From a virus: a stretch of 36,873 nucleotides of DNA. A program made the translations under genes and the position numbers. This document shows, piece by piece, positions 1 to 14,380 of this stretch (position 1 is the stretch's first letter; each line of letters starts with the position of its first letter). The notes below the pieces were generated by a model. It was not told where the DNA came from and did not search any database. It was given only the letters and a program-made list of their open reading frames with translations. The DNA is taken from the IMG/VR virus record IMGVR_UViG_3300007609_000047, positions 1 through 36,873 of that record, one strand, 5' to 3'.

Positions 1-519
1 CTCTAAGGCACGCTGTTTGTCATTCCGAGCATCACGCATTAACTGCTCAGCCGAATTCATAGCAAATGCTTCTATTTCATCATCTACGCTAAAGTAAGGC
101 TGTGATTTATCTCTTGCGTATGCACTTCCACGTTCAGACTTTCTGTCATAACCACGATCCTGCCTTGAACGCTCTTGATCTTTGTGTAGCAGTTCGTGGT
201 GCAGTGTGTCCTGTATGCTTCTGATGAATTGCTTTCTGTTTTTGTTGTTCCAGGTTATTTCTTCATCGGGACTGTCAAACAACAGTTCTAAGCCTACAAT
301 TCCTTCGTGGTCGTCTGTCGGCGGGTCATAAAATCCTGAGGTAATTGCCATATCTGGACCCATATCATATATGGGTGAATTTCTTCTAATAACCCTAACA
401 TCTGGAAACTGATCTCCAACTATGTCTGCTACTTCATCGTGTGTCATTGTGCCCACTAACTTGCGACTGAGTGGTGCTACATTTACTTTTTGAGGTTGTG
501 TGAGTTCTGCTATTCTCAT
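1..519 (-). CDS. HExxH metallopeptidase-like protein, C-terminus cut by window edge
   Basis: The reading frame starts at ATG 519 and is still open at base 1, giving 173 residues. It contains HELLH at residues 108-112 (HExxH zinc motif) and, about 35 residues later, DDEIEAFA at 146-153. This spacing resembles metallopeptidases of the M78/IrrE type, where an acidic residue in such a segment is the third zinc ligand. The start overlaps the stop of the upstream gene as ATGA, so translation is probably coupled. The N-terminus MRIAELTQ resembles the leaders of its neighbours but lacks the final Glu of the L-x-E site. The zinc motif is seen; protease activity and substrate are inference. The C-terminus lies outside the window. 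Confidence 0.6.
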   Translation of the reverse strand, partial: MRIAELTQPQKVNVAPLSRKLVGTMTHDEVADIVGDQFPDVRVIRRNSPIYDMGPDMAITSGFYDPPTDDHEGIVGLELLFDSPDEEITWNNKNRKQFIRSIQDTLHHELLHKDQERSRQDRGYDRKSERGSAYARDKSQPYFSVDDEIEAFAMNSAEQLMRDARNDKQRALE

Positions 520-1013
520 CCTTTTAAACTCCAGACCCTTATGTTTTCGTCCCCACGCAACAGTGCCGCTATCATTCTGCCCACGCCGAATATAACGTCT
601 CCGTTCGCCATAACGCTGGGTTTGGCAGTGTCAGCACTCATCTTTGCGTATTTGAAAAATCTATCTGGATTTCGATCATACACGGTGCCGCCCTTGAAGT
701 CTGTGCCCCAGCGTTTGTTTATGGCATCTACAACCGGTTGTGGAGTTCTTGATACTGATCCCCGCATCCAAGGCTCACGCAACAGTGCTTTTGTGCTTAC
801 TTCAACGGGTTTATCGCTGGTTAGCCGAAGTTTTGTAAATACGTCTATGTCTTCTTGATCTGGATTGGGACGTTCGTCTATAAACTCCTGTGCCAGTTCT
901 GTTGGCAAGGTGCGTATCCACTCACTCCATTCTTCGGGGGTGTTTTCAAGTGCTGTATCTATGTTGATGGCACCCATCTTGTCTGTTTCGATAACAAACT
1001 CCGAGATTCTCAT
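516..1013 (-). CDS. Conserved phage protein with ParB-like C-terminal segment
   Basis: 165 residues. The leader MRISEFVIE ends in a V-I-E triplet close to the T4 prohead-protease consensus. The C-terminal segment around GDVIFGVGRMIAALLRGD recalls the G-x-G-R-x-x-A-A core of ParB/sulfiredoxin-like domains, but the rest of that domain is not obvious. No transmembrane segment is seen. It lies 3 bp downstream of the 227-residue gene and overlaps the metallopeptidase-like gene by 4 bp, so it belongs to the same operon. Function unknown; internal virion protein is my working inference from the leader. Confidence 0.65.
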   Translation of the reverse strand: MRISEFVIETDKMGAINIDTALENTPEEWSEWIRTLPTELAQEFIDERPNPDQEDIDVFTKLRLTSDKPVEVSTKALLREPWMRGSVSRTPQPVVDAINKRWGTDFKGGTVYDRNPDRFFKYAKMSADTAKPSVMANGDVIFGVGRMIAALLRGDENIRVWSLKG

Positions 1014-1016
1014 TGA

Positions 1017-1700
1017 TCACCTTTGACTGTCGTAGTATGCTTTGAATGCAGGTTTTATATAGGCACCGCCTGTGCCTGGCTTAGCACCTGCCTTCTCTGC
1101 CATCGCCGAAAGATATCGAAGACTCTGTTTTCCGTTTCTTTTTTCTAACTCTTTGACTAACTTTTTCAGTATGGATTGATCTATCTCGACCTCTTCACCT
1201 TTAGGTAGCGGATTTTTTACTTTTTCAACTTCAACTTCCACTGCACCTTCTGGAAACATGTTTTCTATGTCACTCTTGAGTTGGTCACCATCTCTTATAC
1301 CGTAAGTATCATAGTTTTTGGTTAGGCTACCTTTGCCTGGGATTGTTATTTTGGTCTTATAGTATTCGTATCCTGGCTTTTCTAGGCTTGATTTCTTTGC
1401 CTCTACGGGTGCTTTTTTCATCTGTATCTTGCCAAGATCCTGTTGTTGCCCCGCATCTTTTTGAACCATTGTTGAAGTCTGTTGATCCGGCAGGGGACTG
1501 GTGTTGGTGTCCATACCGAACGCTTTGGCTACAGGTGCTAATCCCATCATTACAGCAAGAGCACCAGCACCTACTCTTTGTGCGAGACTTGCTTCTTCCA
1601 GTGTGTTCAAATATTCAATGTATTCGTGTAAGTCTTCAAACTGATATTCTCTGTCTTTGATTTGGTTTGTGCTTTCTGCGAGTATTTCTGCAATCTTCAT
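1017..1700 (-). CDS. Putative internal virion protein with two predicted prohead-protease sites
   Basis: 227 residues, no recognised enzyme domain. The leader MKIAEILAE|ST matches the T4 capsid-targeting pattern (L-x-E cleavage). A second L-E-E|A occurs near residue 36, followed by a hydrophobic Ala/Gly-rich helix (roughly residues 42-62). The same arrangement (L-x-E, Ala, hydrophobic helix) occurs in the upstream SOD fusion gene. The middle is Gln/Lys/Pro-rich and probably disordered; the C-terminal third is charged. The start overlaps the SOD gene stop by 4 bp (ATGA). Presence as a gene is well supported by tight operon packing; the role is inferred. Confidence 0.65.
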   Translation of the reverse strand: MKIAEILAESTNQIKDREYQFEDLHEYIEYLNTLEEASLAQRVGAGALAVMMGLAPVAKAFGMDTNTSPLPDQQTSTMVQKDAGQQQDLGKIQMKKAPVEAKKSSLEKPGYEYYKTKITIPGKGSLTKNYDTYGIRDGDQLKSDIENMFPEGAVEVEVEKVKNPLPKGEEVEIDQSILKKLVKELEKRNGKQSLRYLSAMAEKAGAKPGTGGAYIKPAFKAYYDSQR

Positions 1701-3121
1701 TTCTTTTTCCTTTTCTTGGGAAACAGTTTCTTAACATTTTGATATTCACCGCCTACAGGAACATCAGCCGTGGCATTCTGTTTGGTCACTATGCCAACAC
1801 CTGCGGCTTCTTCTTTTACATTTTCTTTGAGAGTAATAACACCACAGGCCAGTCTATCACCAGCATTACCTGTCTTTAATGATTCTGCATCACCGCCCTG
1901 GCCTAGATCGTCTTCATCGCTGTGTACAATTATAGAACGACCCACTACACTACGATCGCCAGCAAGGTCAACACGCTCTGCAATAATTTTCACAACAGCA
2001 ACACCATTTTCATCGGCTGTGATATTCCCCAAATCGCCTACGTGACCTTGTTCTAAATCACCGTGATCTACTCCATCTGGATTATAGTGTGCACCAGCAC
2101 TTTCACAACCCTTTGATAAGTCGCCGTATTCGTGAATATGGAATCCGTGTTCGCCAGGCTCTAATCCTGTAATCTTGCCTGCGATAAAAGTAGGTCCAGA
2201 GCCAGTCTGCTTAAAGAGCATAGTGCCTTTAACAGTATCAGAATGTTCTAATACACACACAGCAGACAGTGTATCGCTGTCTTCTGACAATTTGTTAACG
2301 CTTTCACACTGACAGTTTGTTGCCTTTGTTCTAGGACATCCGGATTCCTGTATTGGTTTTAGCAATGCAAATGCTTGATCGATATCTTCTTTGGTAATAA
2401 CAAATTTGTTACCTCTGGAATGTATTTGCTGTCCTACAGTCTGTCTAAGAAGATCCGCTAACCTGTCTACGTCCTGTTCAGTTTCAACCCAGTCAACGAT
2501 AGCATCTTTAATGTAACTAACAAGTTGTGTTCTGTTCACAACTAGATCGCTTTCTGTTATACCGTATTCTTTTTCAAATGCGTCAATGATTTCTTGATTC
2601 TCTGGACTGTTTTCTGACTTCAAATAATCATACAGTTTTTTGCCGCCGTAAAGTGCCGCAATAACAGCCGCCGCAGGAATCCCATAACGAACAATAACTT
2701 TAGCCACTGTAGGAACAAGAGCGTCATCTAGTCCGATGTCTTCTAGAAAATTGATAGCACTGTTTACGGTATCCCATATTTCGTATGCACCGTATGCCGC
2801 TGCCGTTTTGCCTGGATTTTTAACCACTGCCTTGCCTGTTGCTAATGCGGCTTTGCCTGCATTTTTAGCAACACCCTTGGCGACCTGTTTTGCACCTTCT
2901 CGGCTAAGAAGACGACTAACAACCGGAGCTCCTAAACGAACAGCGGTGGCCAGTGCTGGAACCAGCAGAGGAAATGCTTCGTTCAGTTGTTGTGTATCTT
3001 CGTTGGTTTTCTTTTTGCGTCCAGCACAATGAGCTTTCTGGCTGAAGCCTTTTGGGTTAGAGCAATTGATAGAGTCTTTGTACTTCTTGCTCCATTTTTC
3101 TGTTAGTTCAGTTGCTTTCAT
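1697..3121 (-). CDS. Cu/Zn superoxide dismutase fused to an N-terminal hydrophobic virion-like domain
   Basis: 474 residues. Residues about 285-430 form a full Cu/Zn SOD: copper and zinc ligands appear as GFHIHEYGD (H328, H330), AHYNP (H345), DHGD (H353), GHVGD (H360, D363) and VHSDED (H400). The disulfide pair C339/C426 and the active-site Arg R423 in GDRLACGV are present. The enzyme would dismutate superoxide to oxygen and peroxide. The first 280 residues are unrelated: leader MKATELTEK, a Cys-containing basic segment (C20, C32, NPKGFSQKAH) and two hydrophobic helical stretches (about 50-72 and 135-160). L-N-E|A (residue 48-49), I-Q-E|S (259-260) and L-S-E|D (280-281) match the T4 gp21 site rule and could free the SOD. 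The C-terminus is poly-Lys. SOD identity is firm; packaging is inference. Confidence 0.9.
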   Translation of the reverse strand: MKATELTEKWSKKYKDSINCSNPKGFSQKAHCAGRKKKTNEDTQQLNEAFPLLVPALATAVRLGAPVVSRLLSREGAKQVAKGVAKNAGKAALATGKAVVKNPGKTAAAYGAYEIWDTVNSAINFLEDIGLDDALVPTVAKVIVRYGIPAAAVIAALYGGKKLYDYLKSENSPENQEIIDAFEKEYGITESDLVVNRTQLVSYIKDAIVDWVETEQDVDRLADLLRQTVGQQIHSRGNKFVITKEDIDQAFALLKPIQESGCPRTKATNCQCESVNKLSEDSDTLSAVCVLEHSDTVKGTMLFKQTGSGPTFIAGKITGLEPGEHGFHIHEYGDLSKGCESAGAHYNPDGVDHGDLEQGHVGDLGNITADENGVAVVKIIAERVDLAGDRSVVGRSIIVHSDEDDLGQGGDAESLKTGNAGDRLACGVITLKENVKEEAAGVGIVTKQNATADVPVGGEYQNVKKLFPKKRKKK

Positions 3122-3770
3122 TGTCCATTAACTTTATTAATAATTCTAGTTCATCTATGCGTTTTTCTAGATCTAACAGTTTTTCGTCGTGTTCGCTATC
3201 TTCTGAATCACTGCGTTTTGATACTGTGGTAAGGTGCTTCAACAGTGCCGCTAATTCGTTTGGAGCATTTGGATATTTTGTTTTGAGCTGTATTAATGCT
3301 TTTGTGGTTTGCTGATCGAACCCTTTCATATAATCGTCTGCACGATCGTCTTCGTCATCTTCTTCTTTCTTTTCTCTTACTAAAGATTCAAAATTTCCCT
3401 GAATTCTTTCTTGTTGTATGTTATTTTTTTGTGCGTATTCGTCTACTGCTTTTGCCAGTGCAAAGTCTAGGATAGTAAGACTGTTTGTGTCTGAGGTGGT
3501 AGTTTTAACAGTTACTTCTGCAACATCCTGAACAACTTCAGCAAAGTGATCTAGGTACTCTGACACACGATTAATAAAGTCCACAAATTCTACAGCGTGT
3601 CTGTGATTTTCAGCAAAGTATTTTGCGGTAAGAATTCTGTGGTCTAGCATTTCCCAATCTGGAACAGTCTGTTCTTTCATATTCATTAGAGTTTCTTTAT
3701 CCATAACAGCTTCTTCGCTTGGATTCTTTCTGAATTCTCCAACATTTTCCAGAATGGTTTTTATTTTCAC
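3108..3770 (-). CDS. Putative internal virion protein with C-terminal coiled coil
   Basis: 220 residues, not matched to a named family. The leader MKIKTILEN has an I-L-E triplet of the prohead-protease type. The central part is helical, a very acidic stretch lies near residues 133-145, and the last 35 residues (LLDLEKRIDELELLIKLM) have a heptad pattern typical of a coiled coil. Overlaps the SOD gene by 14 bp and the upstream gene by 4 bp, so it is cotranslated with them. Coiled coil plus acidic region would suit a scaffold or core protein, but this is only suggestive. Confidence 0.6.
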   Translation of the reverse strand: MKIKTILENVGEFRKNPSEEAVMDKETLMNMKEQTVPDWEMLDHRILTAKYFAENHRHAVEFVDFINRVSEYLDHFAEVVQDVAEVTVKTTTSDTNSLTILDFALAKAVDEYAQKNNIQQERIQGNFESLVREKKEEDDEDDRADDYMKGFDQQTTKALIQLKTKYPNAPNELAALLKHLTTVSKRSDSEDSEHDEKLLDLEKRIDELELLIKLMDNESN

Positions 3771-4186
3771 TGTGTTCGATCCTTGTCGTCAATAGCTCCG
3801 CCACTCACCCACGCTGTACACGAACGAGTTCCGGCACATTTAAAATGCAGGAAGTTGCAATATCCCAAATCTGACTTGTGAATAGTGGCCATAACATCAG
3901 CATCTTTTTCGTCGCCTTGTGCACCGCTTTCAATGCAAGACCACATTTTGTCTGAAACGTCAAATGCCGCACAGTTATTGCACTGCATTGTTTTAGCCGT
4001 CTTTTCGTCTATGTCCCAGGTCTTGGCGGCTTCTTTCCAGTAGTTGCCGGGCTTGTCAGGATTAGCAGGACCATAATGATAATCGTCAATGGCTTTTTGA
4101 CGATTTTTTAAGTTTACATCTATGTCTTGTGTAGCAATGGGGCAGCCTTTTTCAGCTGCCTCTACTAATCTGATATACTGTCTCAT
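3767..4186 (-). CDS. Small cysteine-rich protein, possible HiPIP-like fold
   Basis: 139 residues. Begins MRQYIRLVE|AAEKGCP, again an L-x-E|A leader. The second half has spaced cysteines: C-x2-C (QCNNCAAFD), then WSC, then GYCNF, then KCAG and RSC, with an aromatic/glycine end (AWVSGG). The spacing loosely recalls high-potential iron-sulfur proteins or a structural zinc/disulfide domain; I cannot decide which. Similar small proteins recur in marine T4-like phages as far as I recall. It lies directly upstream in transcription of the coiled-coil protein and SOD fusion, which makes a redox role tempting but unproven. Confidence 0.6.
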   Translation of the reverse strand: MRQYIRLVEAAEKGCPIATQDIDVNLKNRQKAIDDYHYGPANPDKPGNYWKEAAKTWDIDEKTAKTMQCNNCAAFDVSDKMWSCIESGAQGDEKDADVMATIHKSDLGYCNFLHFKCAGTRSCTAWVSGGAIDDKDRTQ

Positions 4187-4188
4187 AG

Positions 4189-5652
4189 TTATTTTTTGAT
4201 TTTAACACAGTTGTCAACACGCTTGCCACCTTTCATTTTGGTGCCCATACGCTTGTAGCCTTTCCAACAAACCTTGCCGTCGATGCCTTTTTGCTTTTCT
4301 TCATTGATATTTTCGTATGTTGCTTGAATGTTTTCAGGCATAGTGACAAACATTGGCTTACCGCAATCCGAACAGTTTTCTGGTAAACGATCTGGGTTAC
4401 GAGTGTTTGGACTTGCACGAAGACTGCCAGGTGCCTTTACACCTTTTTCTTTGGCTTTCTTGCGAGCCTTGGCTGTGTCTAACACACCAATGCCAAGTCC
4501 TTTTTTGTCTGCACCTGGATCTAGATCTTTGTTCATCTGTTTTGTTTGATCGGCTTGCTTCTTCATCATATCAGCGGCAGCACCACCTTTAACAGTATAA
4601 CCTATACGCTTTGAAAAGTTTCTGTCAAATTTGCTATCTTCTTCAAGATCGTCGTTAAGACCATACTTGCCTTCTTTGCCTTCAATGTATGCGTGTAGCG
4701 TCATCATCGTGCCGTGTACTCTGGCCAATTTGTTCTGGAACCATTCCTTCATTGGAAAATTTTGAAAATGTTCTTCTAACTCATCGCAAGCATACTTGAT
4801 AAACTCTAGTTGTCCCATAGCCATTTCGATTTCAGCGTGAGGACCATCGTCGCTACGATCGTAATCGTCGTCGTTGCCTTCTCTAAACTTGTCCACTCCG
4901 GATCCAGCCCCTTTGGTTTGACTCATAGCAAACTTTGCAAACTTTATAAAGCCGTCTCTAGTACCAATCATATTCAATACTTTTCTTTTGTTTTCTTCGT
5001 TGAGAGCGTCAAACACTTTGGTAACAGCACTGGCGGTAAACATATCTACTTTGGATTTGCCGTCCATAAAACGTACTTCTTTTGCAGACTTGTCGCGAAC
5101 AATAGCTTTTAACATTTGGATAACAGCAATGCCATCTTGATACTTAGAACCTTCGTCTATGCCTTCTTTAGGCTCTTCGTCCTCGTCAGCATCACCTACG
5201 TCGATGATTTTATCTTCATCGTCGTCTGCAAATTCGTTATCTTCTTCGTCGTCGAGCATATCTTCGGTATCCTGAGCTTTAACAGCAGGATCATCAGTAA
5301 ACTTTTTAGCATAATCTACCAATTGGTCAATTATTTCTAATGACACACCGGTGCGATCTTCTAATTGCTCTGGTGTTCTAGCACCTGTGTTTGTACCAAA
5401 CGCAGTAAGTTCATTACCTACTGTAGACATCACACCAGAAAGTTTTTCATCTTTCTGTGTAACTGCCTTGTCCATTAAGATTCTTCCAATTTTGGCTAAA
5501 TCTGAACCTGAGTCTCTGTCGGCTTCAAATTGCATTGCTTTCCCCTTGTGTTTTTGCTCGCCACGCTTTACAGCTTGTTTTTTGTCTTTATGAGTTGCCG
5601 GTCTGTTGAATTTATTTAGATTCTTCGCTACTGGATTCTTCTTCGGATTCAT
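4189..5652 (-). CDS. Large acidic-linker virion-like protein
   Basis: 487 residues. The N-terminus is basic and Asn/Lys-rich (NKFNRPATHKDKK), without the L-x-E leader found in its neighbours. Residues about 135-180 form a very acidic Asp/Glu linker. The middle is helical, and the C-terminus carries a CxxC pair (NCSDCGKPM) and a basic Cys-containing tail (GKVCWKGYK, NCVKIKK). Such basic Cys-containing tails recur in proteins of marine myoviruses. Overlaps the cytidylyltransferase gene by 41 bp in another frame. No enzymatic motif seen; a structural or scaffold-related role is inferred from composition and position. Confidence 0.6.
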   Translation of the reverse strand: MNPKKNPVAKNLNKFNRPATHKDKKQAVKRGEQKHKGKAMQFEADRDSGSDLAKIGRILMDKAVTQKDEKLSGVMSTVGNELTAFGTNTGARTPEQLEDRTGVSLEIIDQLVDYAKKFTDDPAVKAQDTEDMLDDEEDNEFADDDEDKIIDVGDADEDEEPKEGIDEGSKYQDGIAVIQMLKAIVRDKSAKEVRFMDGKSKVDMFTASAVTKVFDALNEENKRKVLNMIGTRDGFIKFAKFAMSQTKGAGSGVDKFREGNDDDYDRSDDGPHAEIEMAMGQLEFIKYACDELEEHFQNFPMKEWFQNKLARVHGTMMTLHAYIEGKEGKYGLNDDLEEDSKFDRNFSKRIGYTVKGGAAADMMKKQADQTKQMNKDLDPGADKKGLGIGVLDTAKARKKAKEKGVKAPGSLRASPNTRNPDRLPENCSDCGKPMFVTMPENIQATYENINEEKQKGIDGKVCWKGYKRMGTKMKGGKRVDNCVKIKK

Positions 5653-6241
5653 CTTTACCCAACCCCATTCCTTTTCTTACAGCGGCATACAGATCTTCTG
5701 TGTGCTCGCCGGCTCCTGTCGCTTTTGCAAAAGCCTTGATATCACCTTCTGCGGCTGCCGCTCTAGCACCGCTGGCACTAATGCCACTTATGCCTTCAGC
5801 ACCGTCTTCTCTTTCGCCACTGCTTTCAAAATCCAATGTTTCGAAATTGTAGTAGCCGTGTTCTTTTCCTTCAACACCGTTATATGTTTTAAGCATTTTT
5901 TGCATTGCTTCGAATCGATCGCTTCCTGCAACGAATGTTGCGTGTTTATAACCCTGATCGTACAAATAACTTGCGGCATTCAGTGCTGTTCTAATATTGG
6001 TATCTTCCACAATGTTGCCAGCAAAATCCGGAAACATTTTTCTTAAAAAATCCATTTTGACATCATACGATAACGGATTTTTTTTTCGATCCTGGCTCTG
6101 GCTGGCAAAAATTCGATAGTCGCCGCCAACACCCTTTACGGTATCTAATAATTTTTTATGCCCCAGCGTGGGAGGATTCAGTCTTCCGAAACAGAATGCA
6201 ACGTGTTTTTCTTCTGATTCAAAAAGATCCTTAATTCTCAT
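5612..6241 (-). CDS. Cytidylyltransferase/NMN-adenylyltransferase-like protein with capsid-type leader
   Basis: 209 residues. After the leader MRIKDLFE|SEE comes a nucleotidyltransferase Rossmann fold: FGRLNPPTLGHKKL holds the (H/T)xGH motif, ATFVAGSDR forms a later strand, and ISGISASGAR matches the second nucleotide-binding motif (ISxTxxR type). The family transfers CMP or AMP to phosphorylated acceptors, for example NMN to NAD. The substrate cannot be read from the sequence. The C-terminal 20 residues are Glu/Ser-rich, with the 3' end overlapping the next gene. Start at ATG 6241; overlaps its upstream gene by 11 bp. Enzyme superfamily is well supported; exact reaction unknown. Confidence 0.8.
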   Translation of the reverse strand: MRIKDLFESEEKHVAFCFGRLNPPTLGHKKLLDTVKGVGGDYRIFASQSQDRKKNPLSYDVKMDFLRKMFPDFAGNIVEDTNIRTALNAASYLYDQGYKHATFVAGSDRFEAMQKMLKTYNGVEGKEHGYYNFETLDFESSGEREDGAEGISGISASGARAAAAEGDIKAFAKATGAGEHTEDLYAAVRKGMGLGKDESEEESSSEESK

Positions 6242-6569
6242 AATCGCCTCTGGCTATGTGTTTGTTTTGTTCTTCGGCAATTCTTTTAGCCAATGCAATT
6301 AGAGACCCTTTGGGGAATTTCTTTTCTGGTTCGTCAATTTGAAATTTGTCACAGTATGATTTCACACACTTTTGCACGGGCCTAATATATATTTTGTAAG
6401 CCTTTGGATGATTGCGATATTCTTGATGCTTACGAACTGCCGGGAATAGATTTTTAGTTAAAACATCACGATCGTTGTCGATATAAAACTTGAGATCGTC
6501 AATCCAATCTATATCTCCTGCTTCGTCTTTCGGTGCACCAATCGGTGAAAACATTTCTTTTAATAACAT
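6231..6569 (-). CDS. Conserved phage protein, unknown function
   Basis: The frame is open further upstream, but I chose ATG 6569 (MLLKEMFSPIG) because it lies two bases from the stop of the upstream gene (6571) and a longer start would run deep into that gene. This gives 112 residues: soluble, charged, with YIRPVQKC and KSYC cysteines and a helical C-terminus (LIALAKRIAEEQ). I recall similar short proteins next to head-gene clusters of marine myoviruses, but cannot assign a role. Confidence 0.65.
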   Translation of the reverse strand: MLLKEMFSPIGAPKDEAGDIDWIDDLKFYIDNDRDVLTKNLFPAVRKHQEYRNHPKAYKIYIRPVQKCVKSYCDKFQIDEPEKKFPKGSLIALAKRIAEEQNKHIARGDYEN

Positions 6570-6570
6570 A

Positions 6571-6945
6571 TTACCATTTCCTACAGGACCAATATCTTGC
6601 TTTATGTCTCGGTCCAGGATTATCACAATTGTGTCTAGCACGGAAGCTCTTGCGTCTTGCTGGATTACTTTTTTTAATTTTCATATTCGGATCGCCGAAA
6701 TTTACTTTAACTACATTACCTTTGGGATTTTTGACATAGACTTTAAACTTTTTAACATCGCCTCTAGTCGGCTTGCCTAGTTTAACTTTACGGCCTTGAT
6801 ACTCCGCTTCTTCTAATTCTTCATCTTCTAACCACGGAAGTTCGCCGTAGGTTTCATAAAAGTCATTTCCAGAGTATGTTTCTTCCAACCACTCTTCTGT
6901 AATTGTATTTTCTATTAGATACAGTTTTTCCAATAGGTCTCGCAT
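6571..6945 (-). CDS. Virion-like protein with conserved C-terminal RHNCDNPGP...YWSC domain
   Basis: 124 residues. The leader MRDLLEKLYLIE|NT contains an L-I-E prohead-protease-type site. The first half is acidic (ELPWLEDEELEEAE). The second half is a basic domain: KFKVYVKNPKG, KVNFGDPNMKIKK, FRARHNCDNPGP and ARYWSCRKW, with two cysteines. I recognise this C-terminal domain as recurring in many marine and other tailed phages, often attached to head-region proteins, but no biochemical function is known to me. First gene of the cassette downstream of a late-promoter-like box at 6970-6977. Confidence 0.7.
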   Translation of the reverse strand: MRDLLEKLYLIENTITEEWLEETYSGNDFYETYGELPWLEDEELEEAEYQGRKVKLGKPTRGDVKKFKVYVKNPKGNVVKVNFGDPNMKIKKSNPARRKSFRARHNCDNPGPRHKARYWSCRKW

Positions 6946-13188: not shown

Positions 13189-13652
13189 TATGCATTGATC
13201 CCCACTGAGTATTCAGTCTTGCCGTCGATGCGAGTTGCTGTCAAGCACTCACCGCGATTGTCGCCGTCTGCAAGATATGAAACGTGTACCCAACCTGAAT
13301 CAGGGATGCCTGGAGTATAAAACTCGAGGATCAGTTGATCGAATTCTAGGTTGTCACGAATCCATTCTGCAAGCTCTGCATTTGGCACACCCGGTACTTC
13401 AATGTCAGCCGCTTCACCTTTGCAATGCTGTGAACGTGAACTGCCGCCTACCGCTTCGTTAAGTTCTGGCGAACGATAGCCACTGTTGAGCACAGTAGGA
13501 CCAAAATGATCTCTTACCTTTTGCACAACATTTTCAAACAGTGCAACTGCGGCATCTAGGTGCTCGCCTTGTGGTGTGTTGTCAATACCCTTTCTTTCTG
13601 CTGTTTGGCTCTTTGTAAACTCAGCCATTGTGAAATTTTCTGATAAACGCAT
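13188..13652 (-). CDS. Endolysin, M15-type peptidoglycan peptidase
   Basis: 154 residues, one peptidase M15 (VanY/Peptidase_M15_3-like) domain. The zinc triad is H76 (SRSQH), D83 (EAADIEV) and H123 (GWVHVSY), with the family motif NSGYRSPELN (56-65) and a probable catalytic Glu near 110 (LILEFY). The family cuts D-Ala or L-Ala-D-Glu bonds in peptidoglycan. No signal peptide, so it needs a holin to reach the cell wall. Its ATG overlaps the upstream stop as TAATG, and AGGAGG inside the last codons of the upstream gene is an excellent ribosome site. Next to spanins and small membrane proteins, it completes a lysis cassette. Confidence 0.92.
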   Translation of the reverse strand: MRLSENFTMAEFTKSQTAERKGIDNTPQGEHLDAAVALFENVVQKVRDHFGPTVLNSGYRSPELNEAVGGSSRSQHCKGEAADIEVPGVPNAELAEWIRDNLEFDQLILEFYTPGIPDSGWVHVSYLADGDNRGECLTATRIDGKTEYSVGINA

Positions 13653-14380
13653 TATATCCTCCTCTTTAGTAGCATTGCCTTATCTTCGTTGGTAAACAAA
13701 AAACTGTTACCATACTTACTTATTCCGTAGTCTCCTAAAACTTTAGTCAACCAAAACATTTCGGCGGTGGCGGTGTCGTCCATAGCTTCTGCACCTTCCA
13801 GTACACTCTGCGGATCGTCAACATCTATTTTTTCTAGTTGTATCTCTACACCAAACGGCTTTTTAATGGTAATAATGTTATCTTCTAGAACCAGATCGTC
13901 CATGAGAGTTTTATTGAAGAACGATTTAACTTCTTCAGTCTTTACTTTCTGAACAACATTTTCGTACATTTCTTTTGATGTGGGAATTTTGTTTTGTAAA
14001 TTTTCTGTGGTAGCTTTCAACGCTTTTTTATCTTTGTAATAACGGAAGCCCCATTCGTCGATTCCCGTTAGCTTAGATGCACCATCGAGAATTTCTTCAA
14101 TGTGATTTGCAAGATCTTTGGATCTGTCAATCTCTACAAATATGCTATATTCTCCGTCGTTATTTTCTCCAGAACTTATGTCGGCGTCTAACACAAAGTT
14201 ATAACCTTTTTCCACAAACTCCATAAAATCTTTTGCAGGATAACGATCTTTAGAGCGGAAGGTAAGCACACATACGTCTGCATCTTCCCCCATTTTAGAT
14301 TTAAATGCATCAATGTCAAAAACAGGTTTCACAAGATTTTTTAGATCGTTCTGTCTTAGACCTTCGTTTAACTTAGACAT
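13652..14380 (-). CDS. Conserved T4-like marine phage protein, unknown function
   Basis: 242 residues, soluble, acidic. It begins MSKLNEGLRQNDLKNLVKP; I recall close relatives of this protein in cyanophages and pelagiphages, always unnamed. Features seen: DVCVLTFRSKDRYPAKD, a glycine/acidic turn (SSGENNDGEY) and alternating strands. No catalytic signature. The last codons (Arg-Arg) hold the ribosome site of the endolysin, and it overlaps the upstream gene by 8 bp. Probably a virion or assembly protein by conservation, but this is not shown. Confidence 0.65.
   Translation of the reverse strand: MSKLNEGLRQNDLKNLVKPVFDIDAFKSKMGEDADVCVLTFRSKDRYPAKDFMEFVEKGYNFVLDADISSGENNDGEYSIFVEIDRSKDLANHIEEILDGASKLTGIDEWGFRYYKDKKALKATTENLQNKIPTSKEMYENVVQKVKTEEVKSFFNKTLMDDLVLEDNIITIKKPFGVEIQLEKIDVDDPQSVLEGAEAMDDTATAEMFWLTKVLGDYGISKYGNSFLFTNEDKAMLLKRRI

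Follow-up and report, generated by a model that had tools for sequence, protein, structure and literature searches.

Predicted T4-type capsid-targeting leaders in a ten-gene block of a T4-like virus record

A ten-gene block with shared leaders

The window analysed here is the whole of IMG/VR virus record IMGVR_UViG_3300007609_000047 (36,873 bases), which carries T4-like genes including those for a clamp loader, a GroES-like head morphogenesis protein, a ClpA-like protein and a DnaJ-like protein. Positions 1-6945 hold a cassette of ten genes, all on the minus strand and adjoined by ClpA, PDF and DnaJ genes. In T4, the capsid-targeting sequence (CTS) is carried by the internal proteins IPI-III and by Alt, and is cut by the prohead protease gp21 (Mullaney and Black 1996; reviewed in PMC9026906). 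A first-pass annotation had proposed that most of the cassette proteins begin with leaders of this kind and are destined for the capsid interior. Its ten gene positions and quoted N-termini proved correct when the sequence was re-read; for the gene listed as 6231-6641 the locus stands, but homologue starts place the proper start at 6569 (MLLKEMFSPIGAP). The leaders were scored with a strict pattern, M-[KR]-x(2-8)-[LIVMF]-x-E, set before any relatives were inspected. The leaders and leader-like starts, with the evidence for each, are as follows.

496..519, minus strand: leader-like start MRIAELTQ of the putative HELLH metallopeptidase gene 1-519, which continues beyond the window (sequence)
987..1013, minus strand: leader MRISEFVIE of gene 516-1013, body function unknown (sequence and strict pattern)
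1674..1700, minus strand: leader MKIAEILAE of gene 1017-1700, function unknown (sequence and strict pattern)
3098..3121, minus strand: leader MKATELTE of the superoxide dismutase (SOD) fusion gene 1697-3121 (sequence and strict pattern)
3747..3770, minus strand: leader MKIKTILE of gene 3108-3770, GTG start (homologue N-termini)
4160..4186, minus strand: leader MRQYIRLVE of gene 3767-4186, Cys-rich, function unknown (aligned homologues)
6218..6241, minus strand: leader MRIKDLFE of the cytidylyltransferase gene 5612-6241 (homologue N-termini and virion-detected homologues)
6546..6569, minus strand: leader-like start MLLKEMFS of gene 6231-6569, Glu replaced by Ser (homologue N-termini)
6910..6945, minus strand: leader MRDLLEKLYLIE of gene 6571-6945 (sequence; phrog_7595 4.7e-12)

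The strict pattern was matched by 7 of the 10 cassette genes versus 1 of the 33 other window genes (Fisher p=2.8e-5; body composition expects 0.19), bearing out the claim that seven of the ten proteins have leaders ending in hydrophobic-x-Glu, and showing that the leaders are enriched over the other genes of this phage, a comparison that the first-pass annotation had suggested. L or I precedes x-E in six of the seven; gene 516-1013 has V-I-E. The leaders had also been described as K/R-rich, which overstates the matter: usually K or R is found at residue 2 only, and the net charge of the leader is -1 to +1. Hydrophobic-x-E alone was found in 8/10 cassette genes versus 9/33 other window genes, and was rejected as a marker on the latter count; because this loose form is so widespread, what counts is K or R as the second residue together with the short spacing. 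T4 controls gave the expected result (IPII and IPIII, MKTYQEFIAE; gp24, MAKINELLRE). The starts at 519 (MRIAELTQ) and 6569 (MLLKEMFS) have the leader form without the cleavage residue Glu.

Homologues and internal cleavage sites

Homologues were taken from IMG/VR viral contigs, and the family-level leader counts cover the families other than 1-519, 516-1013 and 1017-1700, which have few homologues. For the families of the pterin-4a-carbinolamine dehydratase (PCD)-fold protein (3108-3770), the cytidylyltransferase and the Cys-rich protein, the three single-domain families of the cassette with the best sampling, hydrophobic-x-E lay near the start in 90-94% of distinct N-termini, i.e., in 90% of 41 for gene 3108-3770 and 92% of 48 for gene 5612-6241. 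In 14 aligned homologues of gene 3767-4186, Glu-9 is invariant while the sequence and length of the leader vary. Among homologues with like bodies the leaders differ, as in MKITDILE, MNIRELIDIVE and MRQWIDIIE; the leaders of gene 1017-1700 in relatives are MRISEILTE and MKISEMLTE, and gene 1-519 starts in a relative with MRFFEFKRMRIAELTQ. The family of gene 6231-6569 starts M[LK]L.E[ML]FS, with Ser at the place of the Glu, and none of its 37 homologous N-termini has hydrophobic-x-E. The strict leader was present in 39-54% of distinct homologues in five cassette families versus 0% of those in the neighbour families with good sampling (ClpA, DnaJ, PDF, n11, n12, n21, n22 and phoH). An equal frequency in non-virion genes such as clpA, which the first-pass annotation had named as evidence to the contrary, was thus not found. 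In the n21 family (13652-14380; a PHROG virion structural protein), 90% of homologues show the loose form and lack K/R as the second residue; the short start carries LNE or LDE (QNNQQLNEGLR).

The suggestion that the cassette encodes a Cu/Zn SOD is solid. Two features of that gene bear on cleavage.

1697..3121, minus strand: 474-amino-acid SOD fusion protein (Pfam Sod_Cu 4.3e-45; PDB SODs to 2e-47, single-domain chains)
2282..2290, minus strand: internal L-S-E, residues 278-280, directly before the SOD domain (conservation in viral SOD linkers)

From the N-terminus, the fusion consists of the leader, a cationic two-Cys module (residues 9-38), a middle region, a CPRTKA-CQCE tag, the LSE site, the Cu/Zn SOD domain (residues ~285-431) and a basic tail. 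Aligned with SOD1, the domain keeps the His ligands, the Asp and both Cys. The two-Cys module is also found in cyanophage hypothetical proteins, and the starts MRAFEFLTE, MRANEFITE and MRSKDLLPE precede the same module as does MKATELTE here. An [LIVM]xE site was present in 57/57 distinct viral SOD linkers (shuffles, ~51%), nearly always ending 5-6 residues before the domain and with a variable middle residue. The L-S-E at residues 278-280 is accordingly conserved in kind, and is predicted to be a second cut that releases the SOD enzyme.

Similar punctuation was seen at three shuffled modules, with LxE near the upstream edge in 37/38, 37/38 and 16/17 cases; LxE was never found at the upstream edge of the RARHNC module, the cationic module at the C-terminus of gene 6571-6945, and hardly ever at that of the GEKARM module. 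Module-bearing proteins in six genomes had a hydrophobic-x-E start in 14/14 cases (background 227/1209), although the module tests are partly circular, because the m5-m8 seeds came partly from leader proteins.

Chance offers one account of the leaders, in that hydrophobic-x-Glu is frequent near the start of Lys/Glu-rich phage proteins, and the loose motif in 9 of the 33 other window genes speaks for it, as do the strict matches in 13/240 called T4 genes. Given the enrichment in the window, the recurrence at the family level and the independent virion-proteome test below, we regard this account, already disfavoured, as scarcely credible.

Prohead protease, virion proteomes and the proposed route

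A T4-type prohead protease, gp21 (PF03420), was found in 7/13 relatives that carry the cassette. The site in the relatives' major capsid protein gp23 reads KYLAE or KYLSE followed by SATAGATSAGN. In relatives, a small leader-bearing protein encoded close to the cassette starts with MKIRDILE followed by SATAGATSAGN, which matches the gp23 site (alignment z=8.5); because the shared SATAGATSAGN follows both, the end of the MKIRDILE leader coincides with the presumed gp23 maturation cut. T4 has a parallel in gp61.1, where MKTFKEFIKE precedes a stretch that resembles gp23 behind the cut (z=12.7). Copies of the peptide downstream of the gp23 cut (e.g., GPTAGYDPL) were seen in several small or modular proteins, two of which are virion proteins detected by mass spectrometry; the carriers are T4 gp61.1 (L222:18966-19130), L392:43122-43307, S-CREM2 gp160 and S-SM1 SSM1_197 (L390 and L158, respectively). 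Such copies possibly mimic the N-arm of the mature capsid protein.

These sites bear on a second account, in which the leaders dock to some other assembly, e.g., one for replication or chaperoning that involves ClpA and DnaJ, and the proteins work in the cytoplasm. The ClpA, PDF and DnaJ genes next to the cassette and the cytoplasmic location of the enzymes' obvious substrates agree with docking. The motif, however, fits gp21 specificity and the gp23 site, is also present on genes of the head-gene region in relatives, and tracks virion detection, so that docking seems to us very improbable.

Virion proteomes of marine relatives contain leader-bearing enzymes. The cytidylyltransferase T4-GC190 was detected in S-SM1 virions (Sullivan et al., PMC3037559), and its gene starts MKKFSAFLNE. 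The S-CREM2 particle contains four non-lytic enzymes, a S-adenosylmethionine (SAM) hydrolase, a Cas9-like nuclease, a kinase and a cytidylyltransferase (PMC10665884, Table 3), and all four (4/4) have a leader: MKDFDSFLEE for the SAM hydrolase, MKRFDAFLTE for the kinase, MKNFSSFLTE for the cytidylyltransferase and, for the Cas9-like nuclease (gp12, L388:7704-10313), RFASFMAE behind a 17-residue N-terminal extension. Moving the nuclease start to its leader was rejected, the codon there being CTG, and the annotated extension stands; gp12 also has KTFRDFLN at its very C-terminus. With the pre-fixed pattern applied to 198 S-CREM2 genes (the genome end was left out), leaders were found on 6/26 of the detected proteins that had no structural role assigned versus 3/155 undetected genes (p=3e-4). 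Only two S-CREM2 proteins have modules like those described above, and both were detected by mass spectrometry. The virion-detected NMNAT/cytidylyltransferase of S-SCSM1 starts MKSFLQFLKE; another S-SCSM1 virion protein (L392:41627-41836) has the C-terminal end KRTFKEFLEYIE.

Entry into the prohead might also serve head shaping, with the leader proteins acting as core or scaffold that is then mostly degraded or expelled, and with no enzyme delivery. In T4, gp21 cuts gp22, gp67 and gp68 into numerous fragments, most of which are removed (PMC9026906), and many cassette-type proteins have several LxE sites. Finished cyanophage virions nevertheless yield leader-bearing enzymes, and the conserved site before SOD would free that domain whole; we consider a purely structural role unlikely.

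The predictions examined were leader specificity, selection for the Glu, a T4-type protease of matching specificity in the family, and leader-bearing enzymes in virions. Leader specificity, Glu recurrence, the relatives' gp21 and gp23 site and the virion homologues support the proposed capsid-interior destination, and the leaders are very probably T4-type capsid-targeting propeptides. Membership in the CTS class is well supported by sequence comparison and by virion data for homologues, and the block probably encodes enzymes carried in the particle.

Several observations weigh against this conclusion. Neither gp21 nor gp23 is present in the 36,873-nucleotide window, which is a fragment. No gp21 or gp23 was found in the nearest relative either, nor any match to the S-SM1 portal, tail sheath or DNA polymerase; since these last are also absent, the nearest relative is probably a fragment. 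Several of the 13 T4 genes that match the strict pattern are non-virion genes. The strict N-terminal leader is present in only 13/57 SOD proteins, so that the case for SOD rests mainly on the internal site. In the genomes of six relatives, a nine-residue form of the leader was found at 21/1223 N-termini versus 2/5223 internal Mets, a descriptive and partly circular count because the form was picked after leaders had been seen; the circularity of the module tests belongs here as well. Finally, the mass-spectrometric detections are compatible with co-purification, which the authors of the S-CREM2 (PMC10665884) and S-SCSM1 proteomes left open, and no report of SOD or the PCD-fold protein from cyanophage virions was found within the literature searched.

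In the capsid-targeting route we propose, the leader would tie the new protein to the prohead core, and assembly of gp23 around the core would enclose the leader proteins. A T4-type prohead protease (gp21) would cut behind the L/I/V-x-E of the leader, and would cut several of the proteins again at LxE between fused domains or modules. The mature SOD, the cytidylyltransferase/NMNAT-like enzyme, the PCD-fold protein, the Cys-rich protein and possibly the peptidase would remain in the head, the small cationic modules would perhaps keep the products near the DNA, and the products would probably be ejected together with it. We infer cleavage and packaging in this phage, delivery into the host, the roles of the enzymes there and the holding of DNA by the modules.

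Incorporation of various proteins by T4-like phages via CTS has been suggested (PMC9026906), and so the principle is already known. The cassette resembles the T4 system in that unrelated proteins carry an N-terminal leader of ~7-10 residues with L/I-x-E at its end, with a T4-type protease in relatives, and the gp24 propeptide MAKINELLRE and gp61.1 MKTFKEFIKE resemble its leaders. T4 cargo, however, consists of small anti-restriction and related proteins and the ADP-ribosyltransferase Alt, whereas the cassette encodes enzymes of metabolic type, and has leaders that are slightly shorter, modules joined by fusion and LxE between domains. The S-CREM2, S-SM1 and S-SCSM1 particles share a homologous leader-bearing cytidylyltransferase, but the proteome authors made no link between detection and leader. 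An N-terminal signal also packages DarB of phage P1 for delivery; that signal is >9 and <=30 residues long, and the Dar N-termini have no consensus (PMC9024508). In phiKZ and SPN3US the prohead protease likewise cuts cargo behind Glu (PMC5694885, PMC7411985), but these are giant phages with a diverged protease and no common short leader on an enzyme cassette. No earlier link of CTS leaders to cyanophage enzymes was found in the open-access literature, most subscription papers lying outside the search; judged by the papers searched, what appears new is the set of enzymes, the modular build of the proteins and the connection with enzymes of cyanophage virions.

Cyanophage virion proteomes repeatedly show enzymes that their authors were unable to tell from contaminants, and a leader that predicts detection makes this question testable from existing mass-spectrometry data. 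If the proposal is true, some 'auxiliary metabolic genes' encode injected effectors and do not act solely after expression in the infected cell. A broader proposal, whose prospects we judge evenly balanced, is a general export-to-capsid code in marine and other environmental T4-like phages, in which a leader, shuffled cationic Cys modules and LxE-punctuated polyproteins cut in the head would provide the host with first-minute enzymes of metabolism and defence (SOD, NMNAT-like, SAM hydrolase, kinase, Cas9-like nuclease). The leader could then forecast virion cargo from sequence.

Further members of the block

Three other cassette genes have assignable domains.

5612..6241, minus strand: cytidylyltransferase/NMNAT-like enzyme (phrog_3041 3.8e-53, phrog_395 1.7e-40)
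3108..3770, minus strand: PCD fold, residues 30-111, with an acidic C-terminal extension (Pfam 8.9e-14; PDB 2ebb 1e-7)
4189..5652, minus strand: leaderless modular protein with a DUF7230 module near the N-terminus and a CWKGY module at the C-terminus (profile match and nearest relative)

The cytidylyltransferase-like assignment of the first-pass annotation is secure (PHROG 3.8e-53), and a relative of the gene is present in 544 phage records. For gene 1-519, called metallopeptidase-like, the HELLH motif is visible, but the match (E=0.048) is below the cut-off and the label is overstated.

The PCD-fold gene had been overlooked. Its C-terminal extension is very acidic, the charge after the leader being -21. 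The catalytic His cluster of PCD consists of an HHP motif together with the THD histidine. Opposite the HHP of 2ebb lies an HFA-type sequence in which one His is kept, the protein scores far under the NCBIfam cut-offs, and it may be inactive. No match to the gene was found in annotated phages. The Cys-rich protein (3767-4186) had no Pfam, PHROG or NCBIfam match, and an AlphaFold model was discarded for naming its function (mean pLDDT, the predicted local distance difference test, 39).

In the nearest relative, the counterpart of 4189-5652 is fused behind a leader-bearing cytidylyltransferase in an 866-amino-acid open reading frame that starts MNLRNLISE. In the window, genes 5612-6241 and 4189-5652 overlap by 41 nucleotides (5612-5652) in different frames, for which a true split, a frameshift and an assembly error are possible readings.

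A conserved protein of unknown function with the textbook CTS-like start MKTF[KT]EYL[AT]ES was seen in four relatives (G004:C1:150904-151467, G006:C1:135978-136565, G002:C1:74384-74950 and G010:C1:87859-88446), and is by its start a candidate internal protein.

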